In this document: positions 11,401-33,469 of the stretch, one piece after another
Numbering within the stretch: the stretch's first letter is position 1
How the letters are laid out: each line of letters starts with the position of its first letter
DNA from: Deltaproteobacteria bacterium
GTDB taxonomy: Bacteria > Acidobacteriota > Holophagae > Holophagales > Holophagaceae
Length of the DNA stretch: 34,458 nt
Assembly (NCBI GenBank): GCA_020048105.1
Contig: JAIFMW010000091.1
Span: 1-34,458, forward strand
Reading direction: 5' to 3'
Position numbers and translations under genes: made by a program
Notes under the pieces: generated by a model
The model's input: the letters and a program-made list of their open reading frames with translations, nothing else
What the model was told of the DNA's origin: nothing
Database searches by the model: none

Positions 11401-11763
11401 GGCGCGCCAAGGATCGGTATCACCTTCGAAGGTCACAACCACCTGCACCAATTCGGGCAGCACCAGCGTGTTAACGCGCTTAACGCCGGGCATGCCGCCC
11501 AAGGCTTGCTCCGTGGGTTGGGCCACGGAGAGTTCCAATTCCGGGGTGGCGCGGCCAGGACTCTGGATGAGCACACTCAGGATCGGCAGGCTCATGTCGG
11601 GGAAAAGATCCCGCTTCAGGCTCTGGAAGGTAAAGAGACCCGCCAAACCCCAGGCAATGCTCAGGGCGAAGACCCAGCCCTTGCGGGGCAGGAGCCAATC
11701 GAACCAGCGGCGAATCAGGGCGCGGTGATGAGAGGTGGATTCCGGCTGGAAATCAGTGGCCAT
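8491..11763 (-). CDS. Heavy-metal-type RND efflux pump (CusA/CzcA-like)
   Basis: A 1090-residue inner-membrane proton-driven pump of normal RND size. Helix 1 is followed by the family pattern DLFPDMSLPILSV; the helix-4 segment VGLLVDAAVIMVENLAHR matches the VDAAxxMxEN form of CusA and other heavy-metal RND pumps rather than the DD pair of drug pumps. A porter-domain stretch RSGRADVTEDPCPM also fits the metal branch. It follows the adaptor gene with an 11-base overlap; the start at 11763 (MATDFQPES) is preferred to 11775. Unusual: residues about 294-352 are an inserted His/Glu/Pro-rich tract absent from relatives, lying in a periplasmic hairpin of the porter domain (see the repeat entry). Substrate is probably a soft or divalent metal ion; which one cannot be read from the sequence. 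Confidence 0.92.
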   Translation of the reverse strand: MATDFQPESTSHHRALIRRWFDWLLPRKGWVFALSIAWGLAGLFTFQSLKRDLFPDMSLPILSVLIQSPGRATPELELSVAQPTEQALGGMPGVKRVNTLVLPELVQVVVTFEGDTDPWRARQLVAERLSGVIGSYPSGTRPPLMSSASGRLHELMEIVLEGENIDPMKLRDHTEQVLTPRLQSVPGVARVERLGGQERSLQITLIPEKIRSQGVSLSRVMTALEQSHQDLAAGVLEIQDKGWYMSVGSLAATPEEVRQLPVQAARGIITLGDIAEIREAPAFRRGLARHAIGEHEPAAGSAEPARALHEPRKGSSEPTRESHEPAAGAKGHDIAEGNIARRVRPMDGSHEDVSIRIVKQPNAATLEVAEGVRTAVAELKKGLPEGMHLELIYDQGRLVTNALSGVSLALMVGGVFVAMVLILLLGNFRGALLVLAVLPLATLGAAIPLHFAGLGLNAMTLGGLAIAVGLLVDAAVIMVENLAHRLRDHQDNVEPRRVALTRAAAEVATPILIAVLVILAVFIPLLSMGGIAGKLYAPLAVAVAASMTISLVLTFTLVPALVERFLPPGASLQEPRLVLAIKRIYRPALDWALHHGPLVRVLAFGLTIPSIWLAFQLGTNFLPTLDERAFMMLSKVPAESSLEAVDQANLQLDARVKAIPGVESVYRRSGRADVTEDPCPMTDSEIMVILTPDADERMVGREVLEAAEAMPFPVEVNTPMQERIAEGIGGTPADIQVKFFNRDLEPVRAALKEIQERLAKLEGVRSVTPDTPNPMPRWRVALDEEALRRLGVPRPLVAMTLQAALQGLESEIRFEGPQRIGRIVRFPNDGRMSPENLKDTPLVLEDGRALALGQVMRFEETSTPTLVRRESAQRRLGLNVRTTGDLGGTALRIEKALEGIKLPPGTFIKLGGKIEEARETHQRLAIAIAAALALVVGLLYIALKRWREVLVVLATLPDAFAGALFALWLAGESWNISSIVGMIGLFGVAVQNSLVLITQAKDLMAKGVPFEEALREASLGRVRPKLMTAGAAILGLMPMLFGFGGSELERPLAIAMVGGLFTSTLFTLLALPSFYAWVGRPKPDGVPVKE
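10708..10884 (-). repeat. In-frame tandem repeat and double-hairpin element inside the RND gene
   Basis: Read on the minus strand, three units each begin CA(C/T)GAGCCC. The first two are 42 bases (10881-10840 and 10839-10798) and encode HEPAAGSAEPARAL and HEPRKGSSEPTRES. The third is 81 bases (10797-10717) and holds two perfect hairpins: GATATTGCC-GAA-GGCAATATC and TGCGACCCAT-GG-ATGGGTCGCA, joined by GCCCGAAGGG. A closing CATGAG follows. All keep the pump reading frame. The third unit matches the cheA/cheW junction element at 24872-24951 in arrangement and in conserved blocks. Confidence 0.85.
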
Positions 11764-12892
11764 GGCCGCCCTCACCTTCGGGTTGGCTGCGTTTCTGCTG
11801 GTAGGCCTTCAGGAGGTAGGCTCCCTCCGTCACAACTGTGGTGCCGGGTTTCAGTCCATCCACGATCAGGACCTCATCCTTCACTTCCATGCCGCGCGTT
11901 ACGGCGGTAAAAACCGCGCGCTCCTTCTCCACCACAAAGACTCCCCAGCGGCCATCCACCTGCTGCAGGGCGGCCTGGGATAGGTAGATGCCCTTGCCCA
12001 GTGGCACCTTTACTTCGACAGGTGTGCCGGGCATGGGCAGGGCGCCACCCAAGAAACGCAGGCGATAGCTCAGGCGCTGAGTGTCAGTGGTCAGGGTCGA
12101 AGGGGTGCTTTCGAGGCGGGCCTTCCAGGTGCGGCCGTTGGCCTGACGGACCTCGCTTTCCGCACCGGGGTTCCAGCCGATTGGTCCTGGCTGGGAGAGT
12201 TCCAGGCGAATGACTCCGGCCTGGGCGGCCTGGAATTGACCTAATTCTTGACCGGCTTCGACGCCTTGGCCCCGCTGCACTTTCCAGGCCACCACCGCAC
12301 CATGGGCAGGAGCCTTCAACAGGTAATTGGCCCCCGCTTCGCCGGGCTTCAGGCCCACGGCCTCCAAGCTAAGGCGTGCGGCCTCTTCTTCGGCCTTGGC
12401 CGTGGCCGATTCGCCCTGAATGGCTTCGAGGTCGCGACGGGCACCTGCGCCCGCTTGGAAGAGTCGGTCTTCTCGCGCCAGATCCAATTGAATTCGGTCC
12501 AGCTTGGCCTTGGAAGCGATCCACGCCGCCTTTAGGTGGGCCAACTCGGGGCTCTGAATCATCACGAGGGTTGCGCCCGTCGGGCGGTTTTGGCCTGGGA
12601 TCGCCAGCACCTGGCTGACAATGCCCTTCACGGGGCTGCTCAGCAGCGCCTGGGCGGCCTCGTCGCCCACCGCTTCGCCGGGCACCCAGCGGCCCTCGAG
12701 GCGCGGTTCGGGCACCTTGGCCAGCCCGAGGCCACGAATGCCCTCCAGATGAATTCCGGGGCCTTCGGATTCCGCTGCAGCGTGGTCATGGCCTGCGTGC
12801 GGATCGGCATGTTCGGGGGCGGATTTTTTGGCGCAGCCCTGTCCTGCGAGAAGCACAAGAAGCAGGGGAAGAATCATCACCAAGCGGTTCAT
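11753..12892 (-). CDS. RND efflux adaptor lipoprotein (CusB/CzcB-like)
   Basis: A 379-residue periplasmic adaptor. The N-terminus is a lipoprotein signal, LLLVLLAGQGC, with Cys20 as the lipidated residue. A His-rich segment follows at once (EHADPHAGHDH), and the C-terminus ends GEGGHGH, so both ends could bind metal. The core shows a barrel-sandwich half (SSPVKGIVSQVLAIPGQ), a helical hairpin (about residues 110-180) and the second half (LLKAPAHGAVVAWKVQRGQ). The adaptor bridges the RND pump and the outer-membrane channel and, in CusB, also delivers the metal. Its start overlaps the channel gene stop by 4 bases and its stop overlaps the pump start by 11, giving tight coupling. Confidence 0.92.
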   Translation of the reverse strand: MNRLVMILPLLLVLLAGQGCAKKSAPEHADPHAGHDHAAAESEGPGIHLEGIRGLGLAKVPEPRLEGRWVPGEAVGDEAAQALLSSPVKGIVSQVLAIPGQNRPTGATLVMIQSPELAHLKAAWIASKAKLDRIQLDLAREDRLFQAGAGARRDLEAIQGESATAKAEEEAARLSLEAVGLKPGEAGANYLLKAPAHGAVVAWKVQRGQGVEAGQELGQFQAAQAGVIRLELSQPGPIGWNPGAESEVRQANGRTWKARLESTPSTLTTDTQRLSYRLRFLGGALPMPGTPVEVKVPLGKGIYLSQAALQQVDGRWGVFVVEKERAVFTAVTRGMEVKDEVLIVDGLKPGTTVVTEGAYLLKAYQQKRSQPEGEGGHGH

Positions 12893-14073
12893 GGTTTTAC
12901 CTCGGGCAGTAGGGTCTGGAGTTCGGCAAGAAGCAGGTGTTGGGTGTAGACCTGCCGGAGGGAGGCCATCTGGGCTTCCAGAAGTTGGCGGCGGATGGGG
13001 AGTGCCTCCGAAGGGCGCTCACGGCCTTCCTTCAGGCGCAGGCCAACGGCTTCTAGGGCCTGCGTGAAATCGGGCACCGCGGTTAGGCTTCCGGCGTTTT
13101 GCCATTGCGTGGCGGCTCCTTGGAAACGAGCCTCCAAATCGGCCAGGGCCTGGCGGGCTTCGCCTTGCACCATGCGCAGCTGGGCTTCGGTGCTGCGCCG
13201 TATGGCTTCGGTTTCGCCGGGTCTGGGCAGGCGGACAGCCATGCCGATCCGCGTGACTTTTTCGTCGCCTTCTTGGGCATGGCTGCCCCGGAGGCTCCAG
13301 CGGCTTAGGTTCTGGGCTTCCTTTAGACGAAGGCTGCGGGCTTCCAATTCTGCTTGAGCCACAAGGGCCTTGCGCAGGGGGCTCTCCTTCAATCGCTGGT
13401 CGAGGTCCGCCAAGGGGAAATTGGGCATTGGGCCTGGGTCTGCCAAGGGCGCGGCCTTCTCGGGCACTTCGGCCAGGGCCACCAAGGCGCTCCAGGCTTG
13501 CAGGGCCTGAAGCTGAGCTTCGTTCAATTCCAGTTGCACCTTCAGGCGCTCGCCTTCGACCAAGGCCACCTGGAAGGCTGGATCGGCTCCCGCGTCGAAG
13601 CGGGTCTTGGCGACCTTAAGCCAGCCCGCCACGGTGGCGAGATCCGCTTCCCGCAAGGTCAGCAGACGCGCGCCCAGCCAAGCGTTTAGATAGGCCTTGC
13701 GCAACCGCAAGGCACCTTCCCGCTGGGCCGCCTCCTTGAGCAAAGGATGCGCTGCGCCAAGACTGGCTTCGAGGTCTGTGCGCAGGCGGGGCGACAGGAA
13801 GAGCGGTAGATCGAGCTCAAAGCCCTTGTCGGTGCTGCCCGGTTCACGAGGGCTGCGCCTCGGCCCGATTTGAAAAGAAAGGCTAGGTCCCTCGCGCAGA
13901 AAGCCACGGCTTTCCTGGAGGCGAAGATGATGTTCCGCGAGCAGGCTCTCGGTTCGCCAGTGCTCGGGCGTGGGTCGCGCCTTGGCCTGGAGGATGTCGT
14001 ATGGGATGGGCGTCTGGGCCGCTGCCTGCAGTGCCTGCAGGCAGAGCAGCGCCCCGCAAAGGGGAAGTCGCAT
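12889..14073 (-). CDS. TolC-family outer-membrane efflux channel (CusC/CzcC-like)
   Basis: A 394-residue protein with a signal peptide (LCGALLCLQALQAAAQ). It then shows the long amphipathic helices of the outer-membrane efflux family, in two similar halves (about residues 40-200 and 220-394), rich in Leu, Ala, Glu and Gln. Barrel-like strands appear at PSLSFQIGPRRSP and TRIGMAVRLP. It would form the trimeric exit duct for the metal pump encoded next. No Cys follows the signal peptide, so it is not an obvious lipoprotein, unlike CusC. It lies 61 bases after the small His/Cys-rich gene and overlaps the adaptor gene by ATGA. Confidence 0.9.
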   Translation of the reverse strand: MRLPLCGALLCLQALQAAAQTPIPYDILQAKARPTPEHWRTESLLAEHHLRLQESRGFLREGPSLSFQIGPRRSPREPGSTDKGFELDLPLFLSPRLRTDLEASLGAAHPLLKEAAQREGALRLRKAYLNAWLGARLLTLREADLATVAGWLKVAKTRFDAGADPAFQVALVEGERLKVQLELNEAQLQALQAWSALVALAEVPEKAAPLADPGPMPNFPLADLDQRLKESPLRKALVAQAELEARSLRLKEAQNLSRWSLRGSHAQEGDEKVTRIGMAVRLPRPGETEAIRRSTEAQLRMVQGEARQALADLEARFQGAATQWQNAGSLTAVPDFTQALEAVGLRLKEGRERPSEALPIRRQLLEAQMASLRQVYTQHLLLAELQTLLPEVKP

Positions 14074-17200: not shown

Positions 17201-20200
17201 ATGGTTGACGATATTTTCAAAAAACAGTCCCAAGAGCGTTCCAATCCCGGGGCCTCCTCCGCAAAACCTCGAGGCCAGGGCTTTTTCGAGGCCATGGTCG
17301 AGCATCTGCCCGAGGCTGTGGCGGTCCTGCGCGAAGGCACCCATGTTCAATGCAACCCGGCCTATGCTCGGCTGTTTGGTTTCACCGCCCCGACCGAACT
17401 GATCGGGCGTAGCCTGATGGAACTCCTGGCCCCACGCCATGCGGGGGATATCTTGGCTCGCCTGCGAAGCCCTGGGGATACCCTCACGGGATCCTGGCTT
17501 CAGGAAGTGGAAGGGCTCACCCAAGAGGGCGGGATCTTGGCCCTGGAACTCAGCGGGCACCCATTCCGCCAAGGCAACACCGTCTATTACGTGGTCTCCG
17601 CGAAGGACCTTCGCTTGGCCCGGCGAGCCCAGCAGGTCATCAAAAAAGGGGAACGTTGGTGGCGGCACCTGTTCCGCATGTCCTTGGTGGGCATGGGGAT
17701 CTTGGGCAGGGATGGCTGCATTCTGGCCGCCAACGAGCATTTTTGCGCCCTGGCGGGGCTGCCCCAAGCCGAGCTTTTGGGCCGAGAATGGGGTGAATTT
17801 GTTCCGGACCAAAATCTTGCGGACTTGTTTGCCACGTTGGATCAGGTCGGCGAGGAATGGTCCTTTGGACCGCGCGAGACCTTTTTCTGTCATCCCAACG
17901 GCAAGGTTATTCCGGTTCGAATCGATATCAGCCCGGAATTCCGTCCCGATGGGCAGGTCGATCACCTCACGGTTCTCATTCAGGATCTGCGTGAACATCG
18001 GCGCACGGAAGGGCGGCTTTGGGAGACTGAGGACCGCTATCGCCGTCTGTTCGATGAGATGAGTGAAGGCTACGCGCTGCATGAAATTATTTGCAGCGAT
18101 GCCGGTATTCCGATTGATTACCGTTTCCTGGAAGTTAATCCCGCCTGGGAGCAGTGCACCGGCTTGACTGCTGCCGAAGTGATTGGCCGCACCGTGCTGG
18201 AAGTGCTGCCTCAGACCGAAGCCTATTGGATCGAAGCCTACGGTCGCGTGGCACTTTCGGGTGAACCCATGCGGCTCGATCAATATTCCGGCACCCTCGA
18301 CAAACATTTCAGTGTGTTTGCGCAGTGCCCGCGCAAGGGGCTTTTCTCCGTCGTCTTTTTGGATATTTCGGAATTAAAAAAGCAGGAAGAAAAAACGGCT
18401 CTGTTGCTTGCCGCCGTGGAGCAAAGCCCTACTTCAATCGTGATCACCGACACCATCGGGGCCATCGAGTACGTGAATCCAAAGTTTTCGGATCTCACGG
18501 GCTACACCGCCGAAGAAGCCCAGGGCCAGAACCCTCGCATTCTTAAAACGGACGTGCAAGGGCCCGAGGTCTACAAGGAACTCTGGCAGTGCCTGCGGGA
18601 TGGCCGAACCTGGAAAGGGGAATTCTGTAACCGAAAGAAGAACGGGGAGCTTTACTGGGAACAAGCCACGATTTCACCCATCTTGCACGAAGGCCGCGTA
18701 ACCCATTTCCTGGCGGTGAAAGAAGACATCACGGACCATCGCGCCCTTCAGGCCTCCCAAATGCGGCTCGCCGAAGCAGTGGATCAGGCAGCGGAATTGA
18801 TGGTCATTGCCGATTCGCGCGGGGGGCTTATCAATGCCAATCAGGCCTTTCTCCGACTCACGGGCCTTGAGTCCTGGCTCGGCAAGAGGGCACTGAGCCT
18901 CCTACCCAAAGAGGGACGGAGTGCGTTGAGTCGGACCATCTTGAAGCGCTTGCGGGAAGGCCAGCCCTGGCAGGGTAAGTTGCGCCTGCAACGGGCCGAT
19001 GGCACGCCTTGCACCCTCTCGGGAACAATTTCCAAGCTCTGTCCGGTGGGCAACGAAGCCTTCTACACCTGCGTATTCCGGGATATCACCTCCGAGTTGG
19101 AGATGGATCGGCACCTGCGGCAGGTGGAGAAAATGGAAGCCCTGGGCGCCTTGGCCAGCGGCGTGGCGCACGATTTCAATAACGTGCTCACCGCCATCAT
19201 GAGCTCCGCTGAACTCATCGAATGGCAGCTGCCCGAAGATAGCCCCGTCCGTCCCAAGCTCAGCGTCATCATGCAGGCGGCGAATCGTGCCAAGGATCTG
19301 AATCGCCGCATTCTGACCTTTAGTCGACCCACCGAAGAACGGCGGATTCCCTTCGATCTCACGGCCGTGGTCAAAGAGTGCCTTCATCTGCTCAAGTCCA
19401 CGATTTCGAGAGATGTTGAAGTGCGCAGTGAACTGAGTTCCTCGGTGTGGACCTTTGGGGATCCCGCCCAGATCCACCAGGTGGTGATGAATCTGGCCGT
19501 CAATGCCGTGCAGACCATCGATGGCAAAGGCCTACTGGAATTGAGCCTAGTGGAAGTTGATATCGAAGAAGGTTTTCTGGCTCCCGGGTCGAAAGCCCTG
19601 CGGGCAGCCCTCTTGTCCGTGCGGGATAGCGGTCGGGGCATGGATGCCGAAACCCTGGATCATGTGTTCGAACCCTTCCACTCTGACAATCTCGCTGAGG
19701 GTGGCACAGGGCTGGGGCTTTCCGTGGTGCACGGGGTGATTACCCAGCATGGCGGGGGCGTTGCCATTACCTCCGAGCCCGGCAAAGGCACCCTAGTCAA
19801 GGTCTACTTGCCCAGCGCCGCAGCGGAAAGTTCCATGCGGGATGAAACACCCACCGATGCATTGCAAGGCACTGAGCATATTTTGGTGGTGGATATCGAG
19901 GCCATACGGGTGGCTCTGACCAAGGAATCGCTTCAGCACCTGGGTTACCATGTGACCGCCAAATCCGACCCCTTCGAAGCGCTGGATGCCTTCAAAGAAC
20001 ATCCAGCGATCTACGATGTGGTCTTGTTGGAATACTCCAAAGGCGCCCTTTCCGCGGAAGATTTCGCCGCTCGGATTCGAAAAATTAGGCCCACGATTTC
20101 TATCATTCTCGCCTCGGGCAACTCGGTCCCGGCTGGGGTGGAATCCCCCTTCGATGCCCTGCTTCCCAAGCCCTTCTCCAATCGCGATCTGGGTCATGCC

Positions 20201-21781
20201 CTGCGCAAGGTCTTGGACGCTCGCAAGCGGGCCGCTCGGGTGGAAGTCAGTGCCGCGCCGACCCGAGATCGTTCGCGCACCGGAGAAATCCTGATCGCGG
20301 AAGATAGCCCCGTCACCCTCAGCCTGCTGCGCTCCTGGCTCGTCAAGGCTGGCTATCGAGTGCGCGAAGCCCGGGATGGCCAAGAGGCCTGGGAGATCTT
20401 CAACGAACCCGGAGCCGGGCCCTTCTCGTTGGTACTTTCCGACCTCGTGATGCCCCGCATGGATGGAATTCGCTTGGTGGAACGGATCCGCGAAGTGGAT
20501 TCGGAAATCCCCGTGGTGCTGCTGTCTTCTTCCGAAGATGTGGACTCGATGAAGTCGGCCTTGCATCTGCAGGTCAGCCAATTCCTGACCAAGCCCTTCG
20601 ATTCCGGGGTTCTCATTGCGTGTGTGGAGCGATTGGCTGTAGGGGTGAGTGCGCGACAGCGATCGGCCGAAACGGCCCAGGCCGTGCGCATGGCCCAGCG
20701 CGCCTTGGTGGCGGTGCCTGAAAAAGATCTGCCGCTCTATTCCGTGCACCAATCCCTTACGGATGCTGGAGGCGATGTCTTCCGGTGTTTCAAGCAGCCG
20801 GATGGTTCAATTCTGTTCATTCTGGCGGATGTGGCGGGGCATTCGGTCATCAGCTCCTACGCCGTGGCCGCCTTCCTGGGGTTGCTGTCCAGCCTGATGA
20901 TGCAGGCTACCGACCTCGCGACCTTGGCCTCGCGTCTGAATCGTGGCATTCAGGATGGCCCCTTCTCCGAAGTACCCGTTTGCATCTTACTGGGCCATTG
21001 GACGCCCCGCACGGGTCGTTTGCATGTGCTGAACGCAGGCCTTCCCCACGGTCTGTGCGGTGGTCCTGCGCGAAGTGTCCGCATCGCTGTCAACGGAACT
21101 CCACTGGGCGTTTTCGACGAAGCCATGGTGGAAGAAAAAGTGGTCCGGTTGTCTCCGGGCGACCGCGTGTTTTTCGCCAGTGACGGCTTTTTCGATATCC
21201 GCAATGCCGACGGCGAACTCATGGATGATTTGGCACTGAAACTTTGGTGCGAAATGGCCGAGGTGCCCATCCAGCAAGCTGTGTCGATCCTGGCGGGCAT
21301 TGCGCAAACCCTGGCCGAGGGTGGGCTGGAGGATGATCTCTTGGCGGTTGGCTTCGAGCAGCCCGCCTTGGATCCCGATTGCTTGAGCCTAGTGCTTCCC
21401 TCCAATGCGATTGCCATCGATGGAGCCATCGAAAAGCTCACGGAATATCTGGCCAAGGCGCCCCGCTCCATCCCGCTCACCCACTCGCGCACCTTCGAAA
21501 TTCTGTTGGCGGCGCGCGAAGCCCTTACCAACGCCATGATTCATGGCAATGAAGGTCGACCCGAAAGCCAGATCGGGCTGCATGCAAGTTGGCGGCAATC
21601 CCCACCGGCCTTCCTTCTCAATGTCGTGGACGAGGGCCAGGGCTTTGAATTGAAAAAATTAGAATCCCCCACGGATCCCCTTTCTGAGCGCGGGCGAGGC
21701 ATTCCCTACCTTCGGCACTGTGCCAGTTGGGTGGAGATGGTGGGCGGCGAATTGAGTATCACCTTTAGCTGGGAGGCCTAA
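17201..21781 (+). CDS. Giant hybrid kinase fused to PP2C phosphatase and RsbW-like kinase
   Basis: A 1526-residue soluble protein. Order, by residue: PAS-like about 27-145, 152-270, 278-395, 403-510 and 520-635; histidine kinase with His657 in SGVAHDFNNVLTAIM and ATP site to about 880 (TGLGLSVVHGVI); receiver 1 at 887-1010; receiver 2 at 1029-1150 with Asp1081 in LVLSDLVMPRMDG; SpoIIE/PP2C phosphatase at about 1175-1390 with intact metal motifs DAGGDVF, LADVAGHS, SDGFFDI and LEDDLLAVGF; and an RsbW-type anti-sigma kinase at 1400-1526 (EALTNAMIHGNEG, DEGQGF, GRGIPYLR). Receiver 1 is degenerate, with Glu944 at the phospho-acceptor position. The ATG at 17201 has GGAAGG 10 bases upstream; the TTG at 17117 overlaps the terminator arm. 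One base separates it from the STAS gene. The layout implies that phosphorelay controls the phosphatase, and the kinase and phosphatase ends act oppositely on the STAS partner. Confidence 0.95.
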   Translation: MVDDIFKKQSQERSNPGASSAKPRGQGFFEAMVEHLPEAVAVLREGTHVQCNPAYARLFGFTAPTELIGRSLMELLAPRHAGDILARLRSPGDTLTGSWLQEVEGLTQEGGILALELSGHPFRQGNTVYYVVSAKDLRLARRAQQVIKKGERWWRHLFRMSLVGMGILGRDGCILAANEHFCALAGLPQAELLGREWGEFVPDQNLADLFATLDQVGEEWSFGPRETFFCHPNGKVIPVRIDISPEFRPDGQVDHLTVLIQDLREHRRTEGRLWETEDRYRRLFDEMSEGYALHEIICSDAGIPIDYRFLEVNPAWEQCTGLTAAEVIGRTVLEVLPQTEAYWIEAYGRVALSGEPMRLDQYSGTLDKHFSVFAQCPRKGLFSVVFLDISELKKQEEKTALLLAAVEQSPTSIVITDTIGAIEYVNPKFSDLTGYTAEEAQGQNPRILKTDVQGPEVYKELWQCLRDGRTWKGEFCNRKKNGELYWEQATISPILHEGRVTHFLAVKEDITDHRALQASQMRLAEAVDQAAELMVIADSRGGLINANQAFLRLTGLESWLGKRALSLLPKEGRSALSRTILKRLREGQPWQGKLRLQRADGTPCTLSGTISKLCPVGNEAFYTCVFRDITSELEMDRHLRQVEKMEALGALASGVAHDFNNVLTAIMSSAELIEWQLPEDSPVRPKLSVIMQAANRAKDLNRRILTFSRPTEERRIPFDLTAVVKECLHLLKSTISRDVEVRSELSSSVWTFGDPAQIHQVVMNLAVNAVQTIDGKGLLELSLVEVDIEEGFLAPGSKALRAALLSVRDSGRGMDAETLDHVFEPFHSDNLAEGGTGLGLSVVHGVITQHGGGVAITSEPGKGTLVKVYLPSAAAESSMRDETPTDALQGTEHILVVDIEAIRVALTKESLQHLGYHVTAKSDPFEALDAFKEHPAIYDVVLLEYSKGALSAEDFAARIRKIRPTISIILASGNSVPAGVESPFDALLPKPFSNRDLGHALRKVLDARKRAARVEVSAAPTRDRSRTGEILIAEDSPVTLSLLRSWLVKAGYRVREARDGQEAWEIFNEPGAGPFSLVLSDLVMPRMDGIRLVERIREVDSEIPVVLLSSSEDVDSMKSALHLQVSQFLTKPFDSGVLIACVERLAVGVSARQRSAETAQAVRMAQRALVAVPEKDLPLYSVHQSLTDAGGDVFRCFKQPDGSILFILADVAGHSVISSYAVAAFLGLLSSLMMQATDLATLASRLNRGIQDGPFSEVPVCILLGHWTPRTGRLHVLNAGLPHGLCGGPARSVRIAVNGTPLGVFDEAMVEEKVVRLSPGDRVFFASDGFFDIRNADGELMDDLALKLWCEMAEVPIQQAVSILAGIAQTLAEGGLEDDLLAVGFEQPALDPDCLSLVLPSNAIAIDGAIEKLTEYLAKAPRSIPLTHSRTFEILLAAREALTNAMIHGNEGRPESQIGLHASWRQSPPAFLLNVVDEGQGFELKKLESPTDPLSERGRGIPYLRHCASWVEMVGGELSITFSWEA

Positions 21782-21782
21782 T

Positions 21783-22115
21783 ATGACAGTCGCGAAATCC
21801 CCCATGAAGACCCAGAAGGCCGATGGGACCCTGCGTCTCAACCCCAATGGCGATCTGGTGGCCAGCACCGTGGAAGTTCTGCGAGACAGCATGCTCAAGG
21901 CCCTGGAGTCGGCCAAGATCGCCGTGGTGTTGGATCTGGCCTCCACCAAGCAGATCGATTCCTTGGGCATCACCCTGGTGCTGGGTCTGTTCAAGAGTTG
22001 CCAGAAGAAAGAGCTCGCCTTCTCCATCGAAGGGGCCAGTACCGATCTCCTGCGGGTGTTCAAACTCTTCAACCTGACCAAATTCTTCCCCATTGCGGAG
22101 GCGATTCGTGAGTAG
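21783..22115 (+). CDS. STAS-domain anti-sigma-factor antagonist (RsbV/HsbA-like)
   Basis: A 110-residue single STAS domain. The core strand and switch helix read IAVVLDLASTKQIDSLGITL, with Ser60 in the DSLG motif that RsbW-type kinases phosphorylate and PP2C phosphatases clear. Both activities are encoded at the C-terminus of the protein immediately upstream. GGAGG precedes the ATG. The stop overlaps the cheA start by 8 bases, so output is made together with CheA. By analogy with HsbA of Pseudomonas and SypA of Vibrio fischeri, its partner may be an anti-sigma factor, a cyclase or another protein; the operon suggests something in the chemosensory array. Confidence 0.93.
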   Translation: MTVAKSPMKTQKADGTLRLNPNGDLVASTVEVLRDSMLKALESAKIAVVLDLASTKQIDSLGITLVLGLFKSCQKKELAFSIEGASTDLLRVFKLFNLTKFFPIAEAIRE

Positions 22116-24876
22116 CTTCGCAGACGAGAGCATCATTTCGGATTTCGTAGCCGAGAGTCGCGAACATCTGGCGACCATCGAGCCTGATCTGCTCCGCATG
22201 GAGCAGGAAGGGGCCAAGGTCAGCTCCGAAGTCATCAATCGGGTCTTTCGTGCCATCCATTCAATTAAGGGCGGTGCGGGCTTTTTCGCCTTCGAGGCCC
22301 TAAAGAAACTCAGCCACGCCATGGAAGGCGTGCTCATGCAGGTGCGGGACGGCAAGCTAAAGGTCTCGGCCGAACTGATGGATGTGGTCTTTGCCAGCCT
22401 CGATCGGTTGAAGGCCATGCTGGACGATATCCAGGCCAGCGATACCGTGCCCTATGCCAAAGAATTAGCCACCCTGGAAGCCATTCTGAGTGGGCAGGGC
22501 CTGATCATTGGCGAAACGGTCAAGGGCCGCGAAAAGGGCGCCCAGCGCGATTTCGATCTGGATGCCGAAAGCGTGCGGTCGGCCCTGCGCCGAGGCATGA
22601 ATATCTTCCGCGCCATCGCGTTTTTGCATCGGGATATCCGCGATAAGGGCATGACACCTTTGGCCTTCCTGAATCACGCACTGTCGGTGGGTACCTGCCT
22701 GGATGCCTTCATCGATATCGAAGCCATCGCCGATCTCGAACACTGCCTGGATCAGGACCTGCCCGTCACCTTGCTCTTTGCCACCGTGCTCGAGCCGGAT
22801 CTCGTGGCCCTGGGCCTCAAGCTGCCCATCGAACAGATCAAGGTTCTGGAGCTGGAAGCCCTGCGCAAGGAAGTCAAGGCCAAGGCCAAAGGCACCACCG
22901 AAATCGCAGTCGCGTCGGCTCCGGTGATGGAAGCCGCCGCCATCCAGCCCGAAGTTGAACCGGAAATTGTTGCGGACGCGGAAGCCGACCCAAGCGCCGA
23001 AGGTGAGGCGCCCTCTGAACTGCCGACCAGCGACAAGGCTGCGCGGGATATGAACAAGGACTCTGGCAACGAAACCCTGCGGGTGCGGGTGGATCTGCTG
23101 ACCAACCTCATGAATTTGGCGGGCGAATTGGTGTTGGGCCGCAACCAACTGGTGCGGGCCGTAACCGACTATCAGCACGAAATTCCGGGCCTGGGCGCCA
23201 TTTTGCAAAACGTGAACCAGGTGACCACCGAAATGCAGGAAGGCATCATGCAGACCCGCATGCAGCCCATCGGCACGGTGTTCAGCCGCTTCCCGCGCAT
23301 CATCCGGGATATGAGCCGCCAGCTTTCCAAGCAGATCGAAGTCAAGATCGAAGGCGCCGAGGTGGAACTCGACAAATCCATTGTCGAAATGCTGGTGGAT
23401 CCCCTCACCCACATCATTCGCAACTGCGCCGATCACGCCATCGAAACCCCGGCGGAACGCGCCAAGGCCCGCAAGGATCCCTCGGGCACCATTCACCTGC
23501 ATGCTTTCCACGAGGGTGGTCAGATCAATATCGCCGTCCACGACGATGGTCGGGGCATCGATGCCAAGAAGGTGCTGGCCAAGGCCATCGCCAAGGGCTT
23601 GGTGACCAAGGCGCAGGGTGCGGAAATGACCGAGCGCGAAATCGTGCATCTGGTCTTTGCACCGGGTTTTTCAATGGCCGAAAAGGTCTCCGAAATTTCC
23701 GGCCGTGGCGTGGGCATGGATGTGGTGCGCACCAACGTCGAAAAGTTGGGTGGCCATGTGGAAATGGAAACGGAATTGGGCATGGGCACCACCGTGCGTC
23801 TGCGCCTGCCGCTGACCTTGGCCATTATTCCCTCCATGATTGTGGGGATTACCGAGCATCGCTTTGCCATTCCCCAGGTCAACGTGGTGGAGTTTGTGTG
23901 GGTCAAGGCCTCCGAAGTCGCACAGCGCATTGAACAAGTGCAAGGCGCCCTGGTCTTAAGACTGCGGGACAAGCTATTGCCCCTGGTGCGCCTCGCCGAT
24001 GTGCTTGGCATTCAGCGTGTTTTCACCGATCCGGTCACCGGCGAAAACGTTCCCGATCGTAGGGAATCCTTAGCGGATCGTCGGGGGGAATTGCCCGAAG
24101 AGCCCGAGAATGCAGCGGAACGCAAGGGCGATCGCCGGGCCGATTGGCGCAGCGATCACAACATCATCGTGCTGCGAGTCGGCAAGAATCATTACGGTGT
24201 GATCGTGGACGAACTCTTCGATATCGAAGAGATTGTGGTCAAGCCGCTTTCGGGCTTCATCCAGGGAACCAAGTGCTTCAGCGGCGCCACGATCCTGGGC
24301 GATGGCCGCGTGATCATGATTCTGGATGCCGGTGGTCTCGCCAGCGCTGCCAATCTCCATTTCACCGATTTGCAGGCCGAGGAATTGCGCCGAGCCGAAG
24401 AAGAAAAACGCAACCTTGCGCTCAAAGCCTCACGACGCCGCTCCGTGATTTTGTTCGAAGCTGCCAAGGGCGAGCGCTTCACGGTGCCCCAGGATCATGT
24501 GTTGCGGCTTGAGCGCATCGTCAAGAGCAAGATCGAATTCATCGGCGACCGCGAGTACATCGAATACCGTGGCGAAGGATTGCCGCTGGTGCGCCTGGAT
24601 CAGCACTTGGAGGTGCGGCCCCTCAAGGCCGATTTGGAGGAGCTGTTCCTGGTGATCCCCAAGATCCCCGGCCAGAACTCCACCGCCCGGCCGCCTGCCG
24701 GAATCCTGATTTCCGAAATTCTGGATGCCTTGGATGTCGAGGTGGAATTGAAGGCCGTGGAGTTCAAAGGCCCCGGCCTGCTGGGCTCGGCCGTGGTGCA
24801 GGAGCACCTGACCTTGTTCCTCGATCCCGTGGCGCTCTTGCAGGCGGCGGGTCTTATGGGAGGAGACACAGAATGA
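22108..24876 (+). CDS. cheA: CheA histidine kinase with two CheW-like domains
   Basis: A 922-residue kinase, longer than the usual 650-700. The HPt domain (1 to about 110) holds His51 in AIHSIKGGAGF. Residues about 130-260 form an uncharacterised segment, then an Ala/Glu-rich linker, then the dimerisation domain from about 321 (LTNLMNLAGELVLGRNQL). The ATP domain shows HIIRNCADHAIE, HDDGRGID and GRGVGMDVV. Two CheW-like domains follow, about 568-765 and 775-922; the first is split by a charged insert around 640-690 (RRESLADRRGELPEEPENA). GTG 22108 is chosen because GGAGG lies 7 bases upstream; it overlaps the STAS stop. The gene ends in the double-hairpin element at the cheW junction. Its array partners are CheW and the two receptors downstream; no CheY is seen. 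Confidence 0.95.
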   Translation: MSSFADESIISDFVAESREHLATIEPDLLRMEQEGAKVSSEVINRVFRAIHSIKGGAGFFAFEALKKLSHAMEGVLMQVRDGKLKVSAELMDVVFASLDRLKAMLDDIQASDTVPYAKELATLEAILSGQGLIIGETVKGREKGAQRDFDLDAESVRSALRRGMNIFRAIAFLHRDIRDKGMTPLAFLNHALSVGTCLDAFIDIEAIADLEHCLDQDLPVTLLFATVLEPDLVALGLKLPIEQIKVLELEALRKEVKAKAKGTTEIAVASAPVMEAAAIQPEVEPEIVADAEADPSAEGEAPSELPTSDKAARDMNKDSGNETLRVRVDLLTNLMNLAGELVLGRNQLVRAVTDYQHEIPGLGAILQNVNQVTTEMQEGIMQTRMQPIGTVFSRFPRIIRDMSRQLSKQIEVKIEGAEVELDKSIVEMLVDPLTHIIRNCADHAIETPAERAKARKDPSGTIHLHAFHEGGQINIAVHDDGRGIDAKKVLAKAIAKGLVTKAQGAEMTEREIVHLVFAPGFSMAEKVSEISGRGVGMDVVRTNVEKLGGHVEMETELGMGTTVRLRLPLTLAIIPSMIVGITEHRFAIPQVNVVEFVWVKASEVAQRIEQVQGALVLRLRDKLLPLVRLADVLGIQRVFTDPVTGENVPDRRESLADRRGELPEEPENAAERKGDRRADWRSDHNIIVLRVGKNHYGVIVDELFDIEEIVVKPLSGFIQGTKCFSGATILGDGRVIMILDAGGLASAANLHFTDLQAEELRRAEEEKRNLALKASRRRSVILFEAAKGERFTVPQDHVLRLERIVKSKIEFIGDREYIEYRGEGLPLVRLDQHLEVRPLKADLEELFLVIPKIPGQNSTARPPAGILISEILDALDVEVELKAVEFKGPGLLGSAVVQEHLTLFLDPVALLQAAGLMGGDTE

Positions 24877-24951
24877 GCGCGCAACAGGAGTGGAGCACCA
24901 CTTTACCGCAGGTAAAGCCCGCAGGGTGCGGGACAGGAGGTCCCGCATGAG
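24872..24951 (+). repeat. Double-hairpin element at the cheA/cheW junction
   Basis: From ATGAG at 24873 to CATGAG at 24946-24951 the junction matches the third unit of the RND insert: 18 of 24 bases after the first ATGAG, then hairpin CTTTACC-GCA-GGTAAAG (24901-24917), then GCCCGCAGGGTGCG (13 of 14), then hairpin TGCGGGAC-AGGAG-GTCCCGCA (24927-24947). Hairpin stems differ in sequence between the copies but pair in both. The element supplies the cheA stop (TGA 24874-24876), the cheW Shine-Dalgarno in the loop of hairpin 2, and the cheW ATG. CCCGCA at 24918-24923 can also pair with TGCGGG at 24927-24932, competing with hairpin 2, which would free or hide the Shine-Dalgarno. Confidence 0.8.
24873..24950 (+). 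CDS. Possible 25-residue linking ORF between cheA and cheW
   Basis: ATG at 24873 overlaps the cheA stop as ATGA, and its own stop at 24948 overlaps the cheW start as ATGA. The peptide reads MSAQQEWSTTLPQVKPAG and ends CGTGGPA. It has no family and lies wholly within the double-hairpin element, so it may only serve to carry ribosomes through the hairpins from cheA to cheW. A functional peptide is not supported by the sequence. Confidence 0.3.
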   Translation: MSAQQEWSTTLPQVKPAGCGTGGPA

Positions 24952-25408
24952 CCAATTCGCGACTTTCAACGTGGGCGATCGCCTGTTCGGGCTGGATATC
25001 CTGGGCGTGCGTGAAATTATCCGTGTGTTCACCATTACACCGGTTCCGCGGGCCGAGGCCCATATCCGAGGGCTGATCAATCTGCGCGGTCAGATTGTCA
25101 CCATCCTCGATCTCTCCGTGCGGTTGGGCCATGATCCGCTGCCGGTCAAGGATTCCAGCCATATCGTGATCTTGAAGCATGGCGCCAACACCGCCCAGGG
25201 CAACGGCCGCAACCAAGGCGGCACGCAGGACCTGATGGGCCTACTGGTGGATGCCATCGGTGACGTGGTGGAGGCCGAAGCCGCCCTGGCCGAGGCCCCT
25301 CCGGCCAACCTCACCGATGCCGAGGAACACTTTCTCTCTGGTGTGCTCAAGACCGACCAGGGACTGCTGGTGCTCCTGAATCTGCAAGAACTGTTATCGA
25401 GCGGGTAG
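24947..25408 (+). CDS. cheW: CheW scaffold protein
   Basis: A 153-residue CheW. It starts MSQFATFNVGDRLFGLDI and shows the family segments VREIIR, PRAEAHIRGLINLRGQIV and LGLLVDAIGDVV-like LMGLLVDAIGDVV. A Gly/Asn/Gln-rich insert (GANTAQGNGRNQGG) lies between two strands. CheW couples receptors to CheA. The ATG at 24947 has AGGAGG 6 bases upstream; the longer frame from 24890 reads through the repeat element and is rejected. The extra upstream reading (ARRVR) matches the RND insert because both come from the same element. Confidence 0.93.
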   Translation: MSQFATFNVGDRLFGLDILGVREIIRVFTITPVPRAEAHIRGLINLRGQIVTILDLSVRLGHDPLPVKDSSHIVILKHGANTAQGNGRNQGGTQDLMGLLVDAIGDVVEAEAALAEAPPANLTDAEEHFLSGVLKTDQGLLVLLNLQELLSSG

Positions 25409-25651: not shown

Positions 25652-28504
25652 ATGCGCTTCCTCGATAACATCAAGATGGGCCCCAAACTCATCACTTCCT
25701 TCCTGATTACGGCAGCCCTCGCTGTCATCCTCGGCTTCTTTGCGATCAGCAAGATGCAAGCTGCCGACGACGCCGACACCCTGCTCTTTGAAAAGGGCGC
25801 AGTACCCATTGGCGAATGGATGGATGTTGCCCAGGCCACCTACCGGATCCGATCCAACATGCGCGACATCGTGCTGGGCAAGGATTACGAGGCCTATAAC
25901 AAGCGCATTGCGGACCGCATTGCTGAGCGGACCAAAGCGGAAGAGGCCTTCGAAAAGACCATCGTTTCTGATGAAGCCAAAGCGCTATGGAAGCGCTACA
26001 AGGAAAACCAGGCCGCCATCGGCGATGGCAACCGCAAAACGCGGGAACTCGCACGGGCTGGAAAAAGGGCTGAGGCTGAAGCCTTGATGTATGGCGAGGT
26101 GGACAAACTCCAGCAGGAACAAAACAAGATCTACGATGAGATGACGGCCGCCAAACTGAAATTCAGCAAAGATATTGCCACCGAGAACACCACTAACTTC
26201 CTTGCCGCCAAAAAGGCCATGTATTTCATGATGGTCATCGCCGCTGGTCTGGCTGCGGCGCTGGGCGTTATCATCGCCCGTTCCATCGCCCAGCCTCTGG
26301 CCAAGGGCGTGGACATGATGAACGAAATGGGCAAGGGCCATCTGGGTACCCGCTTGAAGCTGGAGCGTAAGGACGAGATCGGTGAACTGGCCCGCGCCAT
26401 GGATGTGTTCTCCGAGGATCTCCAGATCAAGGTGGTCGGCACCATGCAGAAGATCGCCGTGGGCGATTTGACCACCGAATCCAAGCCCGTGGATGGCCAG
26501 GATGAAATCAACCCGGCCATGATCCAGATGACCAACGCCTTGCGCGCCATGGTCGCCGAGACCCAGGGGCTCGTTCAATCTGCCGTAGAAGGCAAGTTGG
26601 CCACCCGCGCCGATGCCACCAAGTATCAGGGCGATTACCGCAAGATCGTGCAAGGCGTGAACGAATGCCTGGACGCCGTCATTGGCCCCCTCAACGTCGC
26701 AGCTGGATATGTGGACCGGATTTCCAAGGGCGATATCCCCCCCAAGATCACCGACAAATACAACGGTGATTTCAACGAGATCAAGAACAACCTGAACACC
26801 TGCGTGGATGCCGTGAATGCCTTGGTGGCGGATGCCGTTCTACTCAACAAGGCTGCCGTCGATGGCAAGCTGGCCACCCGCGCCGATGGCAGCAAGCACC
26901 AGGGTGATTTCCGCAAGGTCGTGCAGGGCGTGAACGAATGTCTGGATGCCGTCATTGGGCCTCTGAACGTTGCGGCTGGCTACGTGGACCGCATTTCCAA
27001 GGGCGATATCCCGCCTAAGATCACCGATAACTACAACGGCGATTTCAATGAAATTAAGAACAATTTGAACACCTGTGTGGATGCCGTGAATGCTTTGGTG
27101 GCCGATGCCACCATGCTGGCTAAGGCCGCTGTGGATGGCAAGTTGGCCACCCGGGCCGATGCCACCAAGCATCAGGGTGATTTCCGCAAGGTCGTGCAGG
27201 GCGTGAATGACACGCTGGATAACGTGATCAATCCCATCAACGAAGTGCAGCGCATCATGGGCGCCATGGAACAGGGTGATCTCACGGCGCGAATCACCAC
27301 CGAATATAAGGGTGATCTCCAAACCCTGCGCAATGCCGTGAACAATAGCGCCACCAAGCTGGCGCAGACCCTCACCGAAATCAGCGGCGCCAGCAACACC
27401 CTGGCCAGCTCCGCCGATGAACTGACCGCCACATCGGCCACCATGAGCAACAGCGCCGAGCAGATGACCCAGCAGGCCAATACCGCCGCTGCTGGCACCG
27501 AGCAGGCCTCCGCCAACGTGAAGAACATGGCCGCAGGCGTGGAAGAAATGAGCGCCAACGCCAATACGGTGGCCTCGGCCTCGGAAGAAGTAACGGCCAA
27601 TCTGCGCACCGTGGGTGCGGCGGTGGAGCAGATGTCTTCGAACATGAAGACCATCGCCGCCAACACCGAGCAGATGACGAGTTCCGTGAACACGGTGGCC
27701 ACGGCCATCGAGGAAATGAGTGTGAGCTTGAACGAAGTCTCCAAGAACTCCGGCCAGGCCGCATCTGTCGCGGGCAAGGCCTCCAGGAGCGCCGCCAGCA
27801 CCGCCGAGACCGTGAACAAGCTCGGCAAGAGCGCTCAGGAGATCGGCAAGGTGGTGGACATGATCAAGGGCATCGCCGCGCAGACCAACCTGCTGGCGTT
27901 GAATGCGACCATCGAAGCTGCCAGCGCCGGGGAAGCGGGCAAGGGCTTCGCCGTGGTGGCCAACGAAGTGAAGGAACTGGCCAAGCAGACGGCCAGTGCC
28001 ACCGAGGAGATTCGCGCCCAGGTGGAAGACATGCAGGGCAATACCCAGCAGGCGGTGAAGGCGATCGACGATATCGTTCAGATCATCGGCGAGATCAACG
28101 CGATCTCCGGCAACATCGCCGCGTCGGTGGAAGAACAGACTGCCACCACCAATGAGATCTCGAAGAATGTAGGCTTCGCCGCCCGGGGCGCCGCCGAAGT
28201 TTCTCGGAACGTCCAGCAGGCCGCCACCGGCACCAATGAGGTTTCGCGGAACGTGCAGGAAGCCGTGAAGGGTGTCACCGATATTTCGCGCAACATCAAT
28301 CAACTGGCCACGGGTGCCGGTGATGTGGCGAAGAATGCCGGAGAAGCTTCCCGTGGGATGAACGATGTGAGCCGCAACGTGGCCCACGTCAGCACCGCCG
28401 CCAAGGATACCACGCGGGGTGCCGGGGATACCAACAACGCCTCCAAGGAACTGGCGCGGTTGGCCGAGAAACTGCAACAGACCGTATCGCGCTTCAAGCT
28501 GTAA
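25652..28504 (+). CDS. Methyl-accepting chemotaxis protein with poly-HAMP repeats
   Basis: A 950-residue receptor. Membrane helix 1 spans about residues 12-33, a four-helix-bundle-type periplasmic sensor about 36-185, and helix 2 about 188-210, then a HAMP domain. Next come HAMP-like repeats of exactly 91 residues (starting at 314, 405 and 496), each with [18 protein letters not shown] and [14 protein letters not shown]. The signalling domain occupies about 585-950; its tip includes [20 protein letters not shown] and [15 protein letters not shown]. The protein ends QQTVSRFKL with no CheR-tethering pentapeptide. The ATG has AGGAGA upstream. From about residue 500 onward it is nearly identical to the second receptor, so the two probably arose by duplication with gene conversion. 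Confidence 0.95.
26591..27230 (+). repeat. 273-base tandem repeats in receptor 1
   Basis: Units begin at 26591, 26864 and 27137, exactly 273 bases (91 codons) apart; the first two are full and the third turns into a different HAMP after about 90 bases. The units are very similar at DNA level, for example GGCAAG(T/C)TGGCCACCCG at each start. They encode the poly-HAMP linker. Such close similarity invites repeat-number change by recombination. Confidence 0.85.
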
Positions 28505-28996: not shown

Positions 28997-29011
28997 TCAG
29001 TGAGGATTGCG

Positions 29012-31834
29012 ATGGCCAAAAAAACAATTCTCGGAAAGGCCCTGACCGCCATCATTAGCGGCTTGGTGCTGGTCTTCGGTATTGCCATGGTCATCCAATG
29101 GCGCCAGATGGGTGATCAGACCCAGCGACGCCTTCAAGACAACGGGGCATCCATGGCTACGGTCATGCTGGCGGCCCTGCATAACGACATGCTCAAGGGT
29201 GATAACGAAGGCGCCCAGGCCATGACGTCCAAGGTGGGTAGCGCAGGCGTTGTTCGCACGGCATTTGTGCTGAGGGACAGTGGCAAGGTCTTTGTTGCTT
29301 CGGACCAAGCCATGATCGGGAAGGACTACGCCTTGGAAGATGTTTCGGTGCTGCGGGGAGGGCTGTCGAGTTCCTTCAGCCTTTCTGCAGAACATGGCCG
29401 ACCCTATTCCAGGACCCTCCTACCCATTCGAATGGAAAGCGGCTGCCTGGATTGCCATCCAGGGGTCAAGATCGGTGATCCGTTGGGTTACCTCGGGGTG
29501 GAGCCCTGGGCCGAACGCGATTTTCAGGAAGCCGGGATCGCCAAGCGCAACCTGGTGATCTTCAACCTGCTGATTGTGATTCTCGTGACGGGTTCGATAT
29601 TTATTTTGCTGCGCTGGATCACTCGGCCACTGGGAGAAATCTCGGCGGTTTCCGCTCTGATGGCGCAAGGCGAAATCAATCAATCCATTTCGCATCATTC
29701 CAACGATGAACTGGGCACCTTGGCCGATTCCTTCCGGGACATGATGGGCTATATCAAAGGCATAGCCCAAAGTGCCGATGCCATCGCTGAGGGTAATTTG
29801 CAGGTGGAAATTTGCCCAAAGGGTCCCCAGGATTTGCTATCCCACAGCATGGTCGGGGTTACCCAGGTGCTACGGGGAATGACGGAGGAGACTTCACGCA
29901 TTAGCCATGCCGCTGAGGAAGGTCACCTCAATACCCGGGGAAATGCAGACCGTTTCCACGGGGCTTATGGGGAAATCATTCTTGGGATGAATCACACGCT
30001 GGATGCGGTCACCGGTCCCTTGTTCGTAGCCGCTGGTTATGTGGATCGAATTTCCAAGGGTGATATTCCACCCAAGATTGCAGATACCTACCACGGCGAT
30101 TTCAACGAAATAAAACACAACCTAAATACCTGCATTGATGCCGTCAATGCCTTGGTAAACGATACCGACCTGCTTAGCAAGGCAGCCGTGGCGGGGAAGC
30201 TTGTCACTCGGGCCGATGCCACCCATCACCAAGGCGATTTCCGCAGGATTGTGCAAGGGATCAATGACACGCTGGATGCGGTGATTGGACCCCTCAATGT
30301 GGCCGCTGGTTGCCTAGATCGAATTTCCAAGGGCGATATCCCGCCCAAGATCACAGACAACTACCAAGGGGATTTCAATGCCATCAAAAACAACTTGAAC
30401 ACCTGCGTGGAGGCCGTGAGTGCCTTAGTTCTAGATGCTGCCATGCTTAGTAAGGCTGCGGTGGATGGCCAGCTGGCCACCCGGGCCGATGCCACCAAGC
30501 ATCAGGGCGATTTCCGCAAGATCGTGCAGGGCGTGAATGACACGCTGGATGGCGTGATTAATCCCATCAACGAAGTGCAGCGCATCATGGGTGCCATGGA
30601 GCAGGGCGATCTCACGGCGCGGATCACCGCTGAATACAAGGGCGATCTCCAGACCCTACGCAACGCCGTGAACAATAGCGCTGCCAAATTGGCGCAGACC
30701 CTCACGGAAATCAGCGGCGCCAGTAATACCCTGGCCAGCTCCGCCGATGAACTGACCGCCACCTCGGCCACCATGAGCAATAGCGCCGAGCAGATGACCC
30801 AGCAGGCCAATACCGCCGCTGCGGGAACGGAGCAGGCCTCCGCCAATGTGAAAAACATGGCCGCAGGCGTCGAGGAAATGAGCGCCAATGCCAACACGGT
30901 GGCTTCGGCCTCGGAAGAAGTATCGGCCAATCTTCGCACTGTGGGTGTGGCGGTGGAGCAGATGTCTTCGAACATGAAGACTATCGCGGCCAATACCGAG
31001 CAGATGACCGGTTCCGTGAACACAGTAGCCACGGCCATCGAGGAAATGAGCGTAAGTCTAAACGAGGTTTCCAAGAGCTCGGGGCAAGCTGCGTCCGTGG
31101 CTGGGAAGGCCGCCAAGAGCGCTACCTATACCGCCGAAACCGTGAACAACCTGGGCAAGAGTGCTCAGGAGATCGGCAAGGTCGTGGAGCTGATCAAGGG
31201 CATCGCCGCGCAGACCAATCTGCTGGCGTTGAATGCGACCATCGAAGCCGCCAGCGCCGGTGATGCGGGCAAGGGTTTTGCCGTGGTGGCCAACGAGGTG
31301 AAGGAACTGGCCAAACAGACCGCCAGCGCCACTGAAGACATTCGCGCCCAGGTGGAAGACATGCAAGACAACACCCAGCAGGCCGTGAAGGCGATCGAAG
31401 AGATCGTGCAGGTCATCGGCGAGATCAACGCAATCTCCGGCAATATCGCGGCCTCGGTGGAGGAACAGACCGCCACCACCAACGAGATTTCCAAGAATGT
31501 AGGCTTCGCCGCTCGCGGGGCCGCCGAAGTTTCCCGCAATGTTCAGCAGGCCGCCACGGGCACTAACGAGGTTTCGCGGAATATTCAGGAAGCCGTGAAG
31601 GGTGTCACCGATATTTCGCGCAACATCAATCAACTGGCCACGGGCGCTGGCGATGTGGCGAAGAATGCCGGAGAAGCCTCTCGTGGCATGAACGATGTGA
31701 GCCGCAATGTGGCCCATGTCAGCGTGGCTGCCAAGGACACCACGCGCGGCGCAGGCGACACCAACAACGCCTCGAAGGAGTTGGCCAAGCTCGCAGAGAA
31801 ACTCCAGCAGACGGTGTCGCGCTTCAAGCTGTAA
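29012..31834 (+). CDS. Heme c-binding methyl-accepting chemotaxis protein with poly-HAMP repeats
   Basis: A 940-residue receptor. Membrane helix 1 is at about residues 8-28 and helix 2 at about 180-203. The periplasmic part between them holds SGCLDCHPG, a CxxCH heme c site at residues 145-149, in the position seen in the Geobacter heme-PAS receptors GSU0582 and GSU0935. HAMP and 91-residue HAMP-like repeats follow (units at about 29909, 30182 and 30455, 273 bases apart). The signalling domain then reaches the end [12 protein letters not shown] 29012 has TGAGGA 6 bases upstream; the GTG at 29000 is less likely. Such receptors sense redox potential or small ligands at the heme. The C-terminal 450 residues are almost the same as receptor 1, while the sensor halves are unrelated. 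Confidence 0.94.
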
Positions 31835-33035: not shown

Positions 33036-33469
33036 TGCGCTGGGTGATGATCCTGTTTGCTTCCCTGTCACTCGCCGCCCAGGAACCTGCGGACATGCCC
33101 GGGAATAGAGCCCTGAAGGATGCCTCGGCCTGCACGGCCTGCCACCAGGACGCGCAGAAACGCTGGACGACTCACCGAGCGCGACCGTGCACACCCTATT
33201 GCCTGACCTGCCACACCCAGGCCGCCATGGCCCAGCATCATTCCGTGGATGTGCCGCTCCTAAAGTCGCTGCCGACACCGCTTCCCCTCACCAAGGAGCA
33301 GCGCATGGGCTGCTCCACCTGCCATGACCTGTCCCGAGCGCGGGAAGATCTCGTTCCCTGGAAGGCGGAGAGCCTCTTCGATCGCATGTTTCGCAAGCAA
33401 CGCCGCTATAAGACCTATTTCCTCGTCCAGCGCAATGAGCGCGGCCAACTATGCCGCACCTGCCATTGA
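33035..33469 (+). CDS. Small periplasmic tetraheme c-type cytochrome
   Basis: A 144-residue protein with a signal peptide (about residues 1-15, ILFASLSLAAQ). Four CxxCH heme sites are visible: CTACH, CLTCH, CSTCH and CRTCH, the last forming the very C-terminus. Additional His residues (for example in AQHHSVD) could be distal ligands. ATG 33035 overlaps the porin-like stop as TGATG. It is short for its heme content, like periplasmic electron shuttles in metal-reducing bacteria. It does not match NapC/NrfH types because there is no membrane anchor beyond the signal. The CcdA-like protein at 2846 could supply reduced apocytochrome cysteines, but that link is speculative. Confidence 0.88.
   Translation: MRWVMILFASLSLAAQEPADMPGNRALKDASACTACHQDAQKRWTTHRARPCTPYCLTCHTQAAMAQHHSVDVPLLKSLPTPLPLTKEQRMGCSTCHDLSRAREDLVPWKAESLFDRMFRKQRRYKTYFLVQRNERGQLCRTCH

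Follow-up and report, generated by a model that had tools for sequence, protein, structure and literature searches.

The window analysed here is the entire contig C202 (34,458 nucleotides) of a draft genome that is 82% complete, and among named relatives Holophaga sp. and MAGs of the Holophagaceae (phylum Acidobacteriota) are closest to it. Members of the Holophagaceae are soil and groundwater bacteria. On the plus strand we found a gene for a large fused protein, followed by genes for a STAS protein, CheA and CheW (Table 1). The fused gene and the STAS gene are separated by one base, and the STAS and CheA genes overlap by eight bases, both as stated in the original prediction. The four-base overlap also claimed between CheA and CheW is absent in the window, where the ATG at 24873 opens a frame of 25 codons in another register; CheW starts at 24947 behind an AGGAGG sequence, which leaves a gap of 70 bp after CheA. 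Such a four-base overlap is present in eight relatives. Moreover, the unit extends past the four genes first described, with a histidine kinase and a response regulator on the 5' side and two methyl-accepting chemotaxis proteins (MCPs) with multiple HAMP domains on the 3' side.

Table 1. Coordinates of genes and domains of the cluster in the window.
Feature	Position	Strand	Basis and remarks
PAS-HisKA-HATPase histidine kinase, 532 aa	14602..16200	+	Pfam; upstream neighbour of response regulator and fused gene
Response regulator, REC and helical C-terminus of ~120 aa, 248 aa	16228..16974	+	Pfam; upstream of fused gene
Fused sensor/partner-switch protein, 1526 aa (PAS x4, HisKA, HATPase, REC1, REC2, PP2C, RsbW-type kinase)	17201..21781	+	Pfam, homologues, dN/dS
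HisKA (His657) and HATPase_c, histidine kinase core	19142..19816	+	Pfam, residue table; intact in window, degenerate in G011 and G019
REC1, acceptor Asp replaced by Glu944	19877..20230	+	Residue table
REC2, canonical (Glu1034-Asp1035, Asp1081, Ser1109, Lys1131)	20288..20626	+	Pfam, residue table
PP2C (SpoIIE-type), predicted Ser phosphatase	20756..21358	+	Pfam, residue table, fold match to RssB PP2C and SiaA-PP2C
RsbW-type HATPase_c_2, predicted Ser kinase/anti-sigma-like	21428..21769	+	Pfam; fold match to Rv1364c RsbU-RsbW
STAS (RsbV/SpoIIAA-like), 110 aa	21783..22115	+	Pfam, 9e-13
CheA, GTG start	22108..24876	+	Pfam: Hpt, H-kinase_dim, HATPase, three CheW stretches
CheW, 153 aa, corrected start	24947..25408	+	AGGAGG upstream
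MCP, 4HB sensor and multiple HAMP	25652..28504	+	Pfam; kept after CheW in relatives
MCP, multiple HAMP and N-terminal CxxCH motif	29000..31834	+	Homologue in L038

The response regulator is kept upstream of the fused gene in most relatives (L044-L047, L050, L054, L056 and L058), and in two other genomes (L054, L056) it is adjoined by a homologue of the upstream histidine kinase. Its helical C-terminal region, which belongs to no identified family, contains two cysteines, and in G008 the response regulator itself appears as the C-terminal part of a larger upstream frame.

Pfam searches of the fused protein returned four PAS domains, HisKA (residues 648-712), HATPase_c (753-872), two Response_reg domains, SpoIIE/PP2C (1200-1381) and HATPase_c_2 (1410-1523; 3.7e-15), which bears out the PAS sensors, histidine kinase, phosphatase and RsbW-type kinase originally listed for it. 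The first of the two receivers on that list does not, however, qualify as canonical, since Glu944 occupies the acceptor site of REC1 and Ile replaces one acidic-pocket residue; in the window we therefore regard REC1 as a pseudo-receiver, while in genus g6 it is canonical and the acceptor Asp is present. The histidine kinase core carries His657, Asn768 and both glycine boxes, and the features expected of a hybrid histidine kinase (the HisKA His, N, G1 and G2 together with a receiver) are found in the window and in most relatives. All 13 homologues that include REC2 have it in canonical form, the switch position being Ser or Thr, and the domain directly precedes PP2C, as in regulators of the HsbR/CrsR type. 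The PP2C metal-binding Asp residues (1188, 1192, 1210, 1328, 1378 and 1379) are invariant across the homologues, as are the N-box, G1 and G2 of the RsbW-type domain, and the predicted active sites of phosphatase and Ser kinase are both intact in one chain. A structure model of the REC2-PP2C-RsbW part (mean pLDDT 80) gave Pseudomonas aeruginosa RssB (REC-PP2C) and Rv1364c RsbU-RsbW as best fold matches. Between the window and its near relatives dN/dS ranged from 0.005 to 0.22 for every domain and gene tested, and thus nothing is decaying in the genus of the window.

The profile of the STAS protein matches SpoIIAA, and Ser60 (codon 21960-21962), within the motif DSLGIT, aligns with the SpoIIAA phospho-Ser motif; motif and residue are invariant in 14 of 14 STAS sequences. 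The CheA of the window has an intact P1 His51 and intact ATP-binding motifs, and it contains several CheW-like stretches.

We surveyed 77 Holophagaceae genomes, taking as cassette CheA any CheA with at least 60% identity to that of the window. Such a CheA is present in 14 genomes, all other CheAs being at most 46% identical, and the fused protein occurs in the same 14 and is missing together with it from the remaining 63 (p ~1e-15, phylogeny ignored), a co-occurrence that is therefore not due to chance. The STAS gene is present in all 14 genomes and adjoins CheA in every locus. Across several genera the genes follow the order fused protein-STAS-CheA-CheW-MCP, preceded in most by the histidine kinase and response regulator pair. 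Together, the shared distribution and the conserved order uphold the view that the sensor and phosphorelay, the two opposing Ser enzymes, STAS and the core of the array are one inherited unit. Further downstream, genes for CheB, CheR and a CheY-like receiver are present in several relatives; the window genome has the three together on another contig, C77. Contig ends cut the loci of G001, G003, G061, G055 and G019, and in G029 the reading frame of the fused gene is broken, probably through an assembly error. The CheA of G061 (genus g4) is 89% identical to that of the window; we make no claim of horizontal transfer of the cassette between genera, the RpoD comparison being ambiguous.

Outside the family, a REC2-PP2C-RsbW profile run on 396 Acidobacteriota genomes gave full-length matches only in Holophagaceae, and a wide scan of genome contigs with short exact peptides yielded three true relatives only, its other matches being short, partial and without the cassette. 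A tblastn search of plasmids returned no histidine kinase fusion among the matches listed. Two further loci were rejected as relatives: H2 is an operon of another kind, PP2C-STAS-ATPase accompanied by a large response regulator, and H10, which is not a che cluster, has on reading of the ORFs a REC-PP2C gene, a STAS gene and an RsbW-like gene that stands apart from them.

Partner-switch genes inside a che cluster are a trait shared with che1 (class F7) of Shewanella oneidensis, in which CrsR and CrsA are encoded with CheA, CheW, CheR, CheB, CheY and MCPs and probably control RpoS (PMC9855816, PMC6482189). As in the cassette, a receiver-PP2C-kinase/anti-sigma regulator and a STAS protein share a che locus, but for CrsR no histidine kinase, PAS domain or second receiver is reported, whereas the fused protein has all three. 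The most ancient F7 clusters likewise encode one or more anti-sigma antagonists and a serine phosphatase (PMC7184735). In a FastTree phylogeny, a small tree from which Shewanella CheA1 was left out, the cassette CheA grouped with those of Azospirillum, Rhodovastum and Nostoc, apart from the F7-type CheA of Proteus. An F7 assignment of the cassette CheA is not supported by this tree, and its position outside the F7 type suggests that the union of switch and array probably arose separately.

Opposing PP2C and kinase domains in a single chain are known from HsbR (PMC6482189), SypE (PMC3999984) and Rv1364c (PMC9138534). The HsbR-HsbA pair of P. aeruginosa resembles the cassette in its REC-PP2C-kinase/anti-sigma protein, its STAS partner and a receiver fed by a phosphorelay (PMC6482189), but there the phosphorelay is provided by hybrid kinases distinct from HsbR, together with HptB. 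Rv1364c of Mycobacterium tuberculosis also joins PAS, PP2C and an RsbW-type kinase (PMC9138534); it differs in that STAS is fused as well, that histidine kinase and receiver are lacking and that it controls SigF. Within the Acidobacteriota, one chain in another genome (L127; domains read by eye) combines HisKA, HATPase, REC and PP2C, but with one receiver and no RsbW-type domain. The claim that the arrangement is without precedent thus holds in part: we found no described example with a built-in histidine kinase, but unions of switch and che cluster (CrsR-CrsA, ancestral F7) and PP2C-kinase fusions are known. Two features are new: a histidine kinase built in ahead of the opposing PP2C and kinase domains, and the constant linkage to a CheA that falls outside the F7 branch. 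Judged from its sequence, the fused protein is a complete hybrid histidine kinase joined to the CrsR/HsbR layout, and the Holophagaceae unit shows, in more self-contained form, a kind of wiring of which Shewanella had given a first glimpse.

Our preferred reading is that a partner-switching module has been incorporated into a chemosensory operon and receives two inputs, one from the PAS histidine kinase and, probably, one from the array; taken as a whole we judge it to be evenly poised. By analogy with RssB, RsbU and HsbR, the RsbW-type kinase would very probably phosphorylate Ser60 of STAS and the PP2C domain remove the phosphate, with phosphorylated REC2 setting the balance through the helical linker between REC2 and PP2C. 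In RsbU and RssB the signal reaches PP2C through such a linker (PMC12143880). REC2 itself is likely to be phosphorylated by the protein's own PAS-histidine kinase. That the linked CheA would act as a second REC2 kinase, so that cytoplasmic signals from PAS and signals from the MCP array would converge on one receiver, is a step for which we see the chances as equal either way.

Genus g9 (G011 and G019; loci L051 and L049) bears on this second input. Here the fused protein has lost the HisKA Pfam match and, from its histidine kinase, the N-box, G1 and G2; REC2, PP2C, the RsbW-type domain and STAS are intact despite this pseudo-kinase core, and the CheA of G011 retains its P1 His and N-box. Since REC2 outlived the histidine kinase, another kinase must feed it; the adjacent CheA would most simply be that kinase, although a histidine kinase encoded elsewhere could also supply the phosphate. 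We rejected the idea that REC2 is the sole phospho-target of CheA, since the cluster in relatives also holds CheB and a CheY-like receiver, and CheA thus has other targets.

The output is the weakest step of the preferred reading. Tentatively, and by analogy with CrsR-CrsA, the target of STAS would lie outside the array; its likeliest mode of action would be to compete with one of the two alternative region-3 sigma factors (RpoS/RpoH-like or FliA) for the RsbW-type domain. The window genome encodes RpoD, an RpoS/RpoH-like factor (288 aa) and FliA, whose gene neighbours that for FliM, and three region-3 sigma factors are present in each of the six genomes checked; the cluster itself includes neither a sigma nor an anti-sigma gene. 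FliM occurs in 14 of 14 cassette genomes vs 41 of 63 others (p 0.005, uncorrected for phylogeny), a distribution that fits a link between the cassette and motile life. Because a separate STAS-RsbW-PP2C set lies on contig C204, the cassette is not the sole partner switch of the window genome.

Somewhat unlikely, in our estimate, is that, as originally suggested, STAS instead acts on the array, the phosphorylation state of Ser60 deciding whether it binds CheA (or CheW) and so altering kinase activity or CheY specificity, like CheS of Sinorhizobium; the fused protein would then be a cytoplasmic gain control on the array. That STAS immediately precedes CheA in the cassette loci, with an overlap or only a few bases between the two genes, favours such a target, although adjacency of genes is no proof of binding, and encoding in a che operon is a feature of CheS-type STAS proteins. 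In Sinorhizobium and Agrobacterium the small STAS protein CheS, likewise from a che operon, binds CheA (PMC12654446). In Aeromonas, too, STAS adjoins CheA, and in Vibrio and Shinella the two are one gene apart. Moreover, in second che clusters of G008, G024 and G011 (L102, L103 and L104, respectively) a Thr-type STAS (DTAG; two in tandem in G008) lies directly upstream of the paralogous CheA with neither PP2C nor Ser kinase, which hints at a direct relation of STAS and CheA and not at a sigma output. The same clusters speak against this target in one respect: CheS, the paralogues and other STAS proteins beside CheA have no known PP2C or Ser kinase partner in their clusters and work without a dedicated pair, so that the coupling would be new. 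The degeneration in g9 points to the reverse flow, from CheA to REC2, at least as strongly as the CheS precedent points to one from STAS to the array. Were both to operate, a Ser-His-Asp feedback loop would close within one operon (the fused protein setting Ser60, STAS tuning CheA and CheA phosphorylating REC2), which we consider unlikely.

Control of a further enzyme, for instance a diguanylate cyclase, in the manner of HsbA-HsbD or SiaC-SiaD, would connect the phosphorelay to c-di-GMP and the choice between motile and sessile life, and it has precedents in P. aeruginosa (PMC6482189, PMC8457831) and agrees with the restriction of the cassette to genomes with FliM; we hold it improbable, as no diguanylate cyclase was recognised in the clusters of relatives examined, which were scanned with the window proteins and not with a GGDEF model. 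Equally improbable is that partner switch and array are mere operon neighbours sharing expression and not signals, for although the rate of evolution is higher in the fused protein than in CheA (identities of about 50-62% vs 82-89% in the same genomes), their presence and absence coincide in all 77 genomes, gene order is constant in several genera and REC2 is retained where the histidine kinase core is degenerate.

STAS proteins beside CheA have been recorded in several phyla and, to our knowledge, are scarcely explained. In the present unit STAS, its predicted kinase and phosphatase and the controlling receiver are all encoded beside one CheA, and some lineages have dispensed with the built-in histidine kinase, which together make a direct biochemical test simple. 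If CheA phosphorylates REC2, chemosensory arrays can drive Ser-based partner switches outside F7; if STAS binds CheA, arrays have a Ser-phosphorylated regulator.

Finally, we note some features of the surrounding genes. The N-terminal sensor part of the second MCP contains a CxxCH motif (residue 149), as does that of its homologue in G007 (L038, 17563-19839), and the protein is probably a c-type haem chemoreceptor. At 31908-33469 lies the gene for a protein that matched no family and may be of outer-membrane or porin type; a small multihaem cytochrome c with weak likeness to GSU2203/MtrC-type families follows, and the two may be linked to extracellular electron transfer. On the minus strand, positions 8491-14073 hold an AcrB-type efflux operon (RND pump, membrane fusion protein and outer-membrane protein) that is unrelated to the partner-switch unit.
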